A DNA stretch of 64,000 nucleotides from Opitutus terrae PB90-1 (GTDB lineage Bacteria; Verrucomicrobiota; Verrucomicrobiia; Opitutales; Opitutaceae). The stretch's first letter is position 1; every line of letters begins with the position of its first letter. Below are positions 5,091 to 40,446 of the stretch, piece by piece. The notes under the pieces were generated by a model that ran no database searches, had not been told where the DNA came from, and was given only the letters and a program-made list of their open reading frames with translations. The position numbers and the translations under genes were made by a program. The stretch is from contig NC_010571.1 in assembly GCF_000019965.1 (NCBI RefSeq), forward strand, positions 1,426,001 through 1,490,000, written 5' to 3'.

Positions 5091-5131
5091 CTCCAGGCTA
5101 GTTTCACGTAATACGTGAAACTAGCCTGGAG
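5091..5131. repeat. perfect 20-bp-arm palindrome, left copy
   Basis: CTCCAGGCTAGTTTCACGTA (5091-5110) is followed by a single A and then its exact reverse complement (5112-5131). The right arm ends in GGAG, which doubles as the ribosome-binding site of the gene starting at 5138. A transcript starting upstream could fold this into a hairpin that hides the start region; as DNA it is also an ideal dimeric operator. The 29-bp core recurs at 5632-5660. Confidence 0.93.
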
Positions 5132-5137
5132 GTGAGC

Positions 5138-5497
5138 ATGAACAATTCGATCCATCCGAAGCTCGACGTGCCAATGGTGATGGCCGACGGGCTCATTGAA
5201 GTCGCGCGCGAGTTGACGCGCTTAGCGAATGCAAAAATCACGGCACGCCGGCGGCATCGTCGCGGGGCCACGCTCCGTCCCGGAATAGATACTCCGATGT
5301 GGAATGCGCTGGCGCTTGCCGCCCGTGGCGCGCTGCGGAAATACGGTGAGAAATCGCAACTCGGGCGAATCCTCGGCGTGCCGCCGCAACGGGTGCATGA
5401 GTTTTTGATGTCTCGAGCCGCGATGCCCGACGCGGAGCGGACCCTCCTGCTCCTATGCTGGTTGGCACAGCGTCGCTCCCACGGGGCGGTGGGCTGA
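5138..5497 (+). CDS. small putative HTH protein bounded by palindromes
   Basis: A protein of about 119 residues, family not recognised. The middle is very basic (KITARRRHRRGATLR). The C-terminal half reads like a helix-turn-helix: SQLGRILGVPPQRVHEFL, then AERTLLLLCWLAQRR as an amphipathic, possibly dimerising helix. ATG at 5138 is preferred over the in-frame GTG at 5132 because GGAGG (5128-5132) lies 5 nt before it. The gene sits between the palindromes at 5091-5131 and 5632-5660. DNA binding and autoregulation through the palindromes are inferences. Confidence 0.7.
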   Translation: MNNSIHPKLDVPMVMADGLIEVARELTRLANAKITARRRHRRGATLRPGIDTPMWNALALAARGALRKYGEKSQLGRILGVPPQRVHEFLMSRAAMPDAERTLLLLCWLAQRRSHGAVG

Positions 5498-5631: not shown

Positions 5632-5660
5632 GCTAGTTTCACGTATTACGTGAAACTAGC
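5632..5660. repeat. palindrome, right copy (inverted relative to left)
   Basis: GCTAGTTTCACGTA (5632-5645), a T, then TACGTGAAACTAGC (5647-5660). The left copy has A at the centre and this one T, so the two copies are in inverted orientation, like terminal inverted repeats. Matching is limited to the 29-bp core plus one or two flanking bases. It also lies about 75 bp upstream of the leader peptide of the threonine dehydratase gene. Confidence 0.9.
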
Positions 5661-5735
5661 TTGGCCCCGACGCGAGACTGCGGGCTCGACAAGGACGGGG
5701 GAGCGCGTTCTCCTGTCCGCCTGCCAAAAGCCACG

Positions 5736-5810
5736 ATGAACCACAGCGTGATGATTGCCGCCGTGATTATGATTCGCCCCTTCTCAGGGCGGCGGCGCGT
5801 GGCTGTGTAA
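5736..5810 (+). CDS. Ile/Val-rich leader peptide of threonine dehydratase
   Basis: A 24-codon reading frame whose first half is MNHSVMIAAVIMIRP: three Ile and two Val in nine residues (positions 5-13), in front of a branched-chain amino-acid biosynthetic gene and a terminator. This is the layout of classical ilv leader peptides, where ribosome stalling at Ile/Val codons controls downstream termination. No strong Shine-Dalgarno is visible (AAAG at 5727-5730 is the best candidate). The assignment rests on codon content and position, not on homology. Confidence 0.7.
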   Translation: MNHSVMIAAVIMIRPFSGRRRVAV

Positions 5811-5870
5811 ACTAAAATCAAACCACTCTCTCCCGAAGCCCTGAGCATCCCGCTCAGGGCTTTTTGTTTT
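5783..5870 (+). promoter_or_regulatory. transcription attenuator of threonine dehydratase
   Basis: The terminator stem pairs 5836-5846 (AAGCCCTGAGC) with 5852-5862 (GCTCAGGGCTT), with a 5-nt loop and a T-rich run to 5870. A competing segment, CTCAGGGC at 5783-5790 inside the leader peptide, is exactly complementary to GCCCTGAG (5838-5845) and would form an antiterminator. A ribosome that reaches the leader stop (5808) covers 5783-5790 and lets the terminator form. One stalled at the Ile/Val codons (5748-5774) leaves that segment mostly free. Confidence 0.75.
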
Positions 5871-5873
5871 TCC

Positions 5874-6872
5874 ATGAAAAAGCCCTCCCTGACTCTGGAC
5901 GATGTCGAAGCCGCGCGCGCACGCCTGGCTGGCTGCGTGCGCCGCACGCCCTGTCATCTGGCGCCGGCGATTATGGAGCAGACGGGCATGCGCGTGTGGC
6001 TGAAGCGCGACGATCTCCAGCACACCGGCTCATTCAAGGAGCGCGGCGCGCGCCACGCGCTGCTCTGCCTCAGCGCCGCGGAGCGCGCGCGGGGCGTGGT
6101 CGCGGCGTCCGCCGGCAATCACGCGCTCGGGCTCGCGTTCCACGGCGCCACGCTGGGCGTGAAAGTGATCGTGGTCATGCCCACGGTCGCGCCTGCGGTG
6201 AAGATCGCGCGCTGTCGCGGGCTCGGCGCGGAGGTGGTGCTGCACGGGCGCACGTTCGATGACGCGCAGGCGTTCGCGCGCGTCTTCGCGCAGCGCTGCG
6301 GTGCGACGTATGTGCATCCTTTCGACGATTTGCGCGTGATCGCGGGGCAGGGCACGCTGGCGCTCGAGGTGCTGGAACAGGCGCCGCAGCTGGACACGAT
6401 CGTGGTGCCCGTCGGCGGCGGGGGATTGCTCGCCGGCGTGGCGACCGCGGTAAAAGCCCTGCGGCCGGACGTGCGCGTGATCGCCGTCGAGCCGGAGAAC
6501 GCCGCATGCTTCCTGGCGGCGTGCGTGCGCGAGCGCGTCGCTCCGGCCGCGGTGTTGCCGACGCTGGCGGACGGCTTGGCGGTGGCGCAGGTCGGCGCGC
6601 TGACCTACCAACTGGCCGCGTCACGGGTCGACGACGTCGTCACCGTTAACGAAGACGAACTCGCCGCCGCGATCCGGCTGCTGGCGCGTCGCGCAGGCGT
6701 CGTGGCCGAAGGCGCGGGCGCCGCCGCCGTCGCCGCAGTGTTGGCCGGCAAGGTGACGGGCGCCGCGCTCGTGCTCCCGATCACCGGGCGGAACGTAGAC
6801 GCGCGTCGGCATGAACAGATCGTGATGGCCGGAGAGGACGAGCCGGCGATCGCCGAGCCGCGCGCCGCCTGA
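5874..6872 (+). CDS. ilvA: threonine ammonia-lyase (threonine dehydratase)
   Basis: A 332-residue PLP enzyme converting threonine to 2-oxobutanoate, the first step of isoleucine synthesis. The PLP lysine is Lys55 in HTGSFKERGA; the phosphate-binding loop is GGGGLLAG (181-188); SAGNHALG (79-86) is the conserved Asn loop. The C-terminal ACT-like regulatory domain of long biosynthetic IlvA is absent, so by size it resembles the short TdcB type. The upstream Ile/Val attenuator nevertheless argues for a biosynthetic role. The ATG lies only a few bases after the attenuator T-tract, with no clear Shine-Dalgarno. Confidence 0.92.
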   Translation: MKKPSLTLDDVEAARARLAGCVRRTPCHLAPAIMEQTGMRVWLKRDDLQHTGSFKERGARHALLCLSAAERARGVVAASAGNHALGLAFHGATLGVKVIVVMPTVAPAVKIARCRGLGAEVVLHGRTFDDAQAFARVFAQRCGATYVHPFDDLRVIAGQGTLALEVLEQAPQLDTIVVPVGGGGLLAGVATAVKALRPDVRVIAVEPENAACFLAACVRERVAPAAVLPTLADGLAVAQVGALTYQLAASRVDDVVTVNEDELAAAIRLLARRAGVVAEGAGAAAVAAVLAGKVTGAALVLPITGRNVDARRHEQIVMAGEDEPAIAEPRAA

Positions 6873-40368: not shown

Positions 40369-40446
40369 GTCCCCATCGTCTAGCCCGGCCTAGGACACCA
40401 CCCTTTCACGGTGAGAACCGGGGTTCGAATCCCCGTGGGGACGCCA
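40369..40446 (+). tRNA. tRNA-Glu (anticodon TTC)
   Basis: The acceptor stem GTCCCCA pairs with TGGGGAC (40436-40442), the discriminator is G, and the CCA is encoded (40444-40446). The anticodon loop CTTTCAC gives TTC at 40404-40406, and the T-arm is CCGGGGTTCGAATCCCCG. The outermost anticodon-stem pair looks mismatched (C-A). A possible promoter is TTGCAC near 40325 with GTAGCT 15 bp on. The tRNA marks the left edge of the accessory region. Confidence 0.96.

Follow-up and report, generated by a model that had tools for sequence, protein, structure and literature searches.

Transcription of the ilvA gene of Opitutus terrae PB90-1 is very probably controlled by classical ribosome-mediated attenuation that responds to isoleucyl-tRNA. 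The gene lies in a 64,000-nucleotide stretch of DNA, the whole of which we call the window, and the genome that harbours it is a single contig of 5,957,605 bases. The evidence is sequence-based and consists of the anatomy of the upstream region, its conservation, the joint change of a leader segment and a terminator arm, and the placement of codons; from these we infer that in the cell the leader is translated, ribosomes stall, and transcription either ends at the terminator or reads through it. The ilvA step is probably raised when isoleucine runs short in these cells, because relatives keep the leader and a switch of the same kind precedes cimA in other relatives. The features of the region are as follows.

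5686-5714, plus strand: promoter-like element, TCGACA (5686-5691), a 17-nt spacer and TCTCCT (5709-5714)
5736-5810, plus strand: leader ORF MNHSVMIAAVIMIRPFSGRRRVAV, 24 codons with the stop codon TAA at 5808-5810; leader present in 25 of 25 loci
5754-5756, 5766-5768 and 5772-5774, plus strand: putative regulatory Ile codons ATT, by Ile enrichment in leaders and placement relative to segment 2
5757-5762, plus strand: segment 1, GCCGCC, 5' arm of the protector, pairing with GGCGGC at 5788-5793 or 5791-5796 (RNAalifold, 18 loci)
5783-5790, plus strand: segment 2, antiterminator strand CTCAGGGC, within the leader ORF; TCAGGG in 18 of 18 type-1 loci
5836-5871, plus strand: intrinsic terminator, 11-bp stem AAGCCCTGAGC/GCTCAGGGCTT (5836-5846/5852-5862), loop 5847-5851, T-run 5861-5871
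5838-5845, plus strand: segment 3, GCCCTGAG, partner of segment 2 within the terminator 5' arm
5874-6872, plus strand: ilvA, short threonine dehydratase of 332 aa with a PALP domain only

The initial annotation had described a 24-codon frame with three Ile and two Val among nine residues, and the frame reads exactly so, with V-M-I-A-A-V-I-M-I at codons 5-13. The 11-bp terminator and T-run that it placed just upstream of the ilvA ATG are also there: the T-run, which contains one G, ends 2 nt short of the ATG at 5874, and the stem ends 11 nt upstream of it. CTCAGGGC occurs without mismatch both at 5783-5790 and, in a terminator arm, at 5853-5860; the segment 5852-5860 noted earlier is one base too long. 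In the leader, this strand is complementary to GCCCTGAG of the terminator 5' arm (5838-5845). The leader/arm duplex of the window amounts to -17.3 kcal/mol, and when the leader segment was dinucleotide-shuffled, 6 of 500 versions were equally good. The fold of the region 5700-5885 has -61 kcal/mol (z -2.75, 1 of 200 shuffles equally good), while the leader half folded alone is unremarkable in the window. The 1:2 protector is part of the RNAalifold consensus of 18 loci, with no double changes. Its hairpin is strong in some loci; the window copy is no better than shuffles (z -1.14, 25 of 200) and loses to the 2:3 pairing at equilibrium. The predicted transcription start from the promoter-like element is about 15 nt upstream of the leader ATG, both the -10 element and the start site being putative. 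T[CG]GACA is found some 40-50 nt upstream of the leader ATG in 17 of the 18 type-1 loci, L020 having TTTACA. No Shine-Dalgarno sequence of the window leader ORF was seen by eye.

A search of 252 Opitutaceae genomes yielded at least 24 orthologues of the short IlvA (L007-L030, 58-72% identical), making 25 loci with the window's own copy. An orthologue in G217 (58% identical), cut by the contig start, was left out of the upstream reading, as were, from the analysis, eight distant loci from a search for related loci in genome contigs. In all 25 loci, script-based detection found an Ile-rich leader frame and a terminator, and since both occur in every locus examined, which we consider decisive, the observation goes beyond chance. 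The layout of ilv-type ribosome-mediated attenuation that had been proposed from the window, with leader, Ile codons, terminator and antiterminator segment, recurs in 25 of 25 loci. Conservation of the leader codons and of the alternative pairing had been named at the outset as the comparison to make: both are conserved, and leader and arm co-vary. Several of the features that characterize ilv-type attenuators are present, namely an ORF with a cluster of Ile codons, an intrinsic terminator between the ORF and the gene, suitable codon placement and, as predicted from the sequences of types 1 and 2 described below, an antiterminator sharing the 5' arm of the terminator.

Three stem types can be told apart among the leaders. 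TCAGGG(C) goes with GCCCTGAG in 18 loci (type 1) and CCCGGGC, or a near variant, with GCCCCGGGC in five (type 2); the remaining two loci have a third, GC-rich type (type 3). When leaders and arms are swapped among types, leaders of types 1 and 2 do best with arms of their own type (type 1, mean -15.4 vs. -12.4 and -13.6 kcal/mol; type 2, -15.5 vs. -10.8 and -12.8 kcal/mol); the two type-3 leaders pair with their own arms no better than with type-2 arms (-12.9 vs. -13.5). The number of dinucleotide shuffles, out of 500, that equalled the real segment was 2-45 in type 1 (18 loci), 18-175 in type 2 (five) and 56-68 in type 3 (two). Taken one at a time, the loci surpass shuffles by a modest margin, and the pooled signal of the predicted leader/arm pairing is clear. 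In particular, permutation of the arms among 63 loci (the 57 of an alignment called A5 plus seven loci of other families, 64 in total, less L110, which had no terminator by the script rule) changed the mean from -15.25 (matched) to -12.83 kcal/mol (permuted), and none of 5000 permutations was equally good. When each distinct arm core was represented once (12 loci), one of 5000 was equally good. The permutations ignore relatedness, and several of the 12 distinct arms have the CCTGAG core in common. The terminator stem on A5 has 55 cells with double changes vs. 16.6 in shuffles. For the 2:3 pairing, column pair counts were no better than those of a slide of +1, which equalled or beat them on some measures; we therefore prefer the swap and permutation tests. 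Since pairing in a shifted register is also open to the CCGGG types, these counts do not decide the matter.

Two loci seem to show the leader in other states. At L098/L160 (G101:C115:11153-11288) there is an apparent relic of an ilvA leader, with the leader stop lost, the terminator decayed and no short ilvA downstream. At L112 (G239) most Ile codons of the leader are replaced by Leu and Val (LLLVVVLII) and the downstream ilvA frame is shortened; a change of specificity and decay are both possible.

The codon content of the leaders bears on the amino acid that is sensed. As background we used eight large frames of the window standing in for genes. Among the 618 internal codons of the 25 ilvA leaders, 113 (18.3%) are Ile, as compared to 4.4% in the window genes, and the less-used ATT is favoured, the ATT:ATC ratio being 85:28 in leaders vs. 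35:193 in genes. Ile occurs at 7, 5, 11, and 12 codons upstream of GGG in 16, 15, 14, and 12 of the 18 type-1 leaders, respectively. Val makes up 47 of the 618 codons (7.6%) vs. 8.8% in window genes, and the two Val positions of the window leader are Val in 9 and 2 of the 18 type-1 leaders. Hence, of the Ile/Val attenuator suggested by the initial annotation the Ile part stands, and we set aside a joint Ile/Val specificity, as Val is not enriched and one of its two positions is rarely kept. The sensed amino acid would thus be mainly isoleucine; Val may play a minor part. The ilvA leaders (window 5736-5810 and L007-L030) are rich in Met as well, with 48 of 618 codons vs. 1.2% in window genes, which isoleucine sensing does not account for; the leaders of cimA described below have no such enrichment (9 Met in 755 codons).

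The placement of the Ile codons was compared with ribosome geometry by folding the type-1 leaders through segment 3 while barring from pairing the 32 nt that a ribosome would cover. Over the 18 type-1 loci, the mean probability of the 2:3 pairing was 0.90-0.99 for A-site positions from 13 to 5 codons upstream of segment 2, 0.48 at 4 codons upstream, and at most 0.01 from 3 codons upstream to 7 downstream; it was 0.54 at the stop-codon region (+8) and 0.58-0.61 at -16 to -14. Of the 76 Ile codons in these loci, 74 are at -12 to -4, including 16 at -4 that are only half effective in the footprint model (0.48), and none are at -3 to +8. In this model, the placement fits a switch that is on when the ribosome stalls at Ile codons and off when it moves on. 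For the window itself, the probability of the antiterminator, folded up to segment 3, is 0.77 without a ribosome, 0.69 with a ribosome at the stop codon, and 0.80, 0.80, and 0.49 with stalls at the three Ile codons; if only 2:3 pairs are counted, it is 0.85 at the stop codon and 0.96 with a ribosome on codon 2. The means over the 25 loci are 0.76 at the best Ile codon, 0.50 at the stop codon, and 0.42 without a ribosome. As the window leader prefers the 2:3 pairing at equilibrium without segment 4, even when free of ribosomes, the off state there would depend on kinetics, and equilibrium folding of this leader gives no explanation of it.

We propose the following sequence of events. With ample charged tRNA-Ile, the ribosome would pass the Ile codons and either cover segment 2 or leave it to segment 1; segment 3 would then pair with segment 4, and RNA polymerase would halt just upstream of ilvA. 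When isoleucine is short, the ribosome would stall at the ATT codons, occupying segment 1, so that CTCAGGGC (segment 2) could pair with GCCCTGAG (segment 3), no terminator would form and ilvA would be transcribed. After release of the ribosome, the off state may be secured by the 1:2 hairpin, which is made earlier, and by rapid synthesis of segment 4, as in other attenuators.

Related leaders precede a second gene. CimA and threonine dehydratase are two known entries to 2-oxobutyrate. A covariance model of the 25 ilvA leaders (R1) was run over the Opitutaceae, giving counts that are lower bounds. Of the 40 stretches fetched, 33 precede a protein starting with a variant of KIYDTTLRDGTQGEGISFSV, which is citramalate synthase by TIGR00977. 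The match was found in 32 of these 33 genomes, the exception being G112, where the copy is cut at the contig end; in L079 and L087 cimA was placed by the TIGR00977 coordinates. The cimA leaders resemble MTTTRIIADIIIIARQPGQDDAA, and Ile constitutes 182 of their 755 residues, with at least four in each of the 33. Eleven more R1 matches are directly upstream of CimA by coordinates (G005, G007, G019, G021, G029, G090, G092, G107, G118, G119, and G157), and two more cimA leaders (G016 and G017) were found with a second model, R2, built from 57 leaders. Both A5 and R2 took in 32 of the 33 cimA leaders, L085 (near-identical to L084) being left out along with L113. Overall, cimA leaders occur in at least 46 relatives. 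The remaining seven R1 stretches are L082 and L088 (upstream of a small IlvM-like protein), the relic L098, L102 and L111, L112 (ilvA of G239), and L113 (a long IlvA).

The two leaders were not seen together. The ilvA leader is present in 26 genomes, that is, the 25 and G239, whose leader (L112) is rich in Leu and Val; 21 of the 26 have CimA. In 20 of these 21, no R2 match was found and no cimA leader was visible; in the 21st, G075, the contig begins at the cimA upstream region. Hence, between the 26 genomes with ilvA leaders and the at least 46 with cimA leaders there is zero overlap among the 252, for which the chance is 0.004 if the genomes are assumed independent, which they are not. Both kinds of genomes occur within genera g17 and g44. 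Among genomes with no detected ilvA leader, 24 of 26 cimA upstream regions were leaderless (six, then 18 of 20), these 26 having been chosen as lacking a seen full-length R1 match upstream of cimA. This leads us to reject a strict rule by which each genome has one leader; what holds is "not both" rather than "always one". We give about even chances to a broader reading, that a widespread isoleucine-leader family of the Verrucomicrobiota's own, which would be ribosome-mediated, guards the entry to 2-oxobutyrate, at ilvA in some lineages or at cimA in others and never at both, and that in the window's own clade a leaderless cimA with a plain promoter is accompanied by an inducible second route, a leader-run IlvA with no feedback domain. 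Many of the leaderless cimA genes (L116-L129, L136, and L175-L192) have a promoter-like element similar to CTCCCTTGCCA about 40 nt upstream of the ATG, and with it a very short untranslated leader.

R2 was also applied to the class (384 genomes) and to the phylum (387 genomes), and 22 returned loci were read. Seven of these precede IlvA in other families; the weakest of their leaders, L151, has two Ile. Six of these IlvA proteins have 405-423 aa (f35, f47, and f30) and one has 333 aa (f60). One locus precedes ilvD (G046), with a Leu/Ile/Val leader and a gene scoring 708.4 of 644 bits with NF002068. Four precede acetolactate synthase genes of family f77, in another class: the gene of L169 matches TIGR00118 (622.1 of 538.35 bits), and those of L168, L171, and L172 were assigned by eye. 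The leaders of L169, L171, and L172 have 10-12 Ile as counted by script, e.g., MSGSFVVSIAIAIAIIISIIISVIIITPPGMA in L169; the Ile leader of L168 was read by eye. Two more, L154 (G050) and L155 (G150), precede a protein of about 100 aa that is IlvM-like by eye, the L154 protein having no NCBIfam match. The rest are the G101 relic, L167, and six apparent chance terminators (L156, L158, L159, L161, L162, and L170).

Some leader-like regions fall outside these groups. L082 and L088 (both of genus g39), like L154 and L155, have a leader and a terminator upstream of a protein of about 90-110 aa that resembles the acetolactate synthase small subunit by eye; Pfam ACT_5 was matched by the L082 protein only, with E 0.09, and the L088 protein had none. 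In L102 and L111 (genus g41), a leader-like frame (MNNITATTTIMMTKAITLRAGGTRRN in L111) and a terminator stand upstream of a 126-135-aa protein, for which the L111 copy gave no Pfam match; Thr, Ile, Met, and Lys are products of the aspartate family. At L167 (G723), the R2 match has a leader-like frame MNDRTTIQITRLWPGRRRSV and a terminator upstream of a gene that by eye is translation-factor-like, not ilv. In the window's own genome, the second ilvB (L166, G000:C1:189615-191279, minus strand) is preceded by a strong terminator and a leader rich in Val, MILSGKRALSISAALVAVVVVAPFGTRGS; no leader was seen at ilvD or the first ilvB, and none that was convincing at leuA.

The short IlvA proteins are similar to each other in size, 22 of 25 having 330-361 aa; L007 extends to 415 aa, L008 has an internal stop, and L027 starts outside the match. 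In a tree that leaves out L008 (in-frame TAG) and L027, the 23 short IlvA form one clade (95/94), separate from the ACT-type IlvA under a midpoint root. A Pfam scan, which among the short IlvA covered the window's own 332-aa protein, gave no match to the ACT domain. The next IlvA matches below the short clade (L031-L035, 50-53% identical, of ACT-type length) have no R2 match in five of five cases. Attenuation as a general substitute for a lost ACT domain is rejected, as six of the seven leader-bearing IlvA in other families of the class have 405-423 aa and are thus of ACT-type size. The window's own genome also has a 404-aa IlvA, whose ACT matches are just below the cut-off and which has no R2 match, and a CimA without an ilvA-type leader. 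Because of this leaderless ACT-type IlvA and CimA, the short enzyme is not the sole route.

The regulation suggests that the short IlvA serves isoleucine biosynthesis, and the related leaders upstream of cimA and other ilv genes add to this. The chief alternative is a catabolic enzyme, or one whose main substrate is different, with an Ile leader that tunes something besides isoleucine synthesis. Indeed, the protein is below every curated cut-off among the 25 NCBIfam matches listed: the best, PRK07334, gave 348.7 of 496 bits, the TdcB equivalog NF006389 302.8 with a cut-off of 453, and the IlvA equivalogs TIGR01124 and TIGR01127 276.2 of 411.3 and 327.2 of 378.75 bits, respectively. In addition, its nearest solved structure is the catabolic threonine dehydratase 2gn0, followed by other threonine dehydratases, and the genome has another IlvA and CimA. 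Still, related leaders precede cimA, longer IlvA, ilvD, and ilvB, and isoleucine shortage would not be expected to raise a catabolic enzyme, so we consider a catabolic role unlikely. Choosing among several threonine dehydratases is a recurrent problem of annotation with which an Ile leader helps: since the leader would read isoleucine directly, it would mark which threonine dehydratase, or which route to 2-oxobutyrate, a genome uses for isoleucine.

The leader could also act mainly on translation, the hairpin hiding the ilvA ATG, which has no Shine-Dalgarno sequence, and the antiterminator freeing it. In the window, the stem is 11 nt and the T-run 2 nt from the ATG, and they are similarly close in L014, L016, L019, L022, and L024. 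However, the loci read have a T-run after the hairpin, and the gene starts some 40-107 nt further on in L025, L026, and about a dozen cimA loci, which means that the start cannot be hidden in all cases; we regard this explanation as improbable, more so than a catabolic role. Transcription attenuation is also preferred, by a wide measure, over another class of RNA overlapping the terminator. T-box and riboswitch RNAs likewise employ terminator/antiterminator pairs, but the sole match in the window at the Rfam gathering score is a tRNA at 40369-40443, nothing is near the cut-off at 5650-5900, and the antiterminator strand sits in a conserved ORF. We therefore rejected membership of the leader in Rfam or T-box families, having no covariance-model match, and this possibility appears very remote. 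It is hardly credible that the hairpin ends an unrelated short transcript beside an accidental frame, for although short frames are common and the fold of the window's leader half is unremarkable, all 25 loci keep the Ile-codon frame, the segment and the terminator, which speaks strongly to the contrary, and related leaders stand upstream of cimA.

The ilvL/ilvGMEDA and ivbL/ilvBN attenuators of E. coli have runs of branched-chain codons, a protector, an antiterminator, and a terminator upstream of isoleucine/valine genes. The predicted attenuator resembles ilvL and ivbL in having a leader peptide with branched-chain codons, an antiterminator, and a terminator upstream of an isoleucine-pathway gene. 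Unlike them, it guards a single ilvA (or cimA) gene and its Ile codons dominate; the transcript is probably very short upstream of the ORF and without a Shine-Dalgarno sequence, and no relation to Rfam families was found. The actinobacterial ilvB leaders are similar in being short ORFs with Ile, Val, and Leu codons that overlap a terminator; their mode of action is called unclear, and codon substitutions in Streptomyces are cited as having no effect (PMC1262725). Neither ilvA nor threonine dehydratase nor citramalate occurs in the main text of the same paper (PMC1262725). In Listeria and Staphylococcus, leader-peptide attenuation of branched-chain genes has been reported; these leaders, like ours, are outside Proteobacteria, and they differ in phylum and in acting beside CodY (PMC5864092, PMC5794164). 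The leader peptides of hisS and hisZ in Firmicutes belong to the same class of mechanism, with histidine instead of isoleucine, and place attenuation outside Proteobacteria and Actinobacteria; as of 2010, according to that paper, leader-peptide systems had been shown only in those two phyla, ermC excepted, to which Firmicutes were then added (PMC2965389). Verrucomicrobia, Opitutus, Akkermansia, ilvA, and citramalate are not named in its main text (PMC2965389). Among the literature matches listed, assessed by title or start of abstract and with subscription papers outside the scope, there was no report of leader attenuation in Verrucomicrobiota or upstream of cimA, and priority is uncertain. 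The present results provide comparative evidence for leader-peptide attenuation in Verrucomicrobiota and for attenuators upstream of citramalate synthase. Judged by comparison of sequences, a known mechanism appears firmly supported; the place where it occurs is unusual, and its distribution is informative.

Upstream of the leader, the window has a perfect, REP-like palindrome containing TTTCACGTAWTACGTGAAA at 5632-5660, with another copy at 5102-5120. We considered it as an ilvA operator and rejected this, as it is one of 37 genomic copies and 23 of the 24 orthologue loci lack its core. The 37 sites (one with a mismatch) are often paired at about 65-270 bp; the two window copies, 535 bp apart, flank a 121-aa frame (5132-5494) with no NCBIfam match. 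The CGTAWTACG core of the palindrome is present also in L190 and in L022, where it falls outside the leader region.
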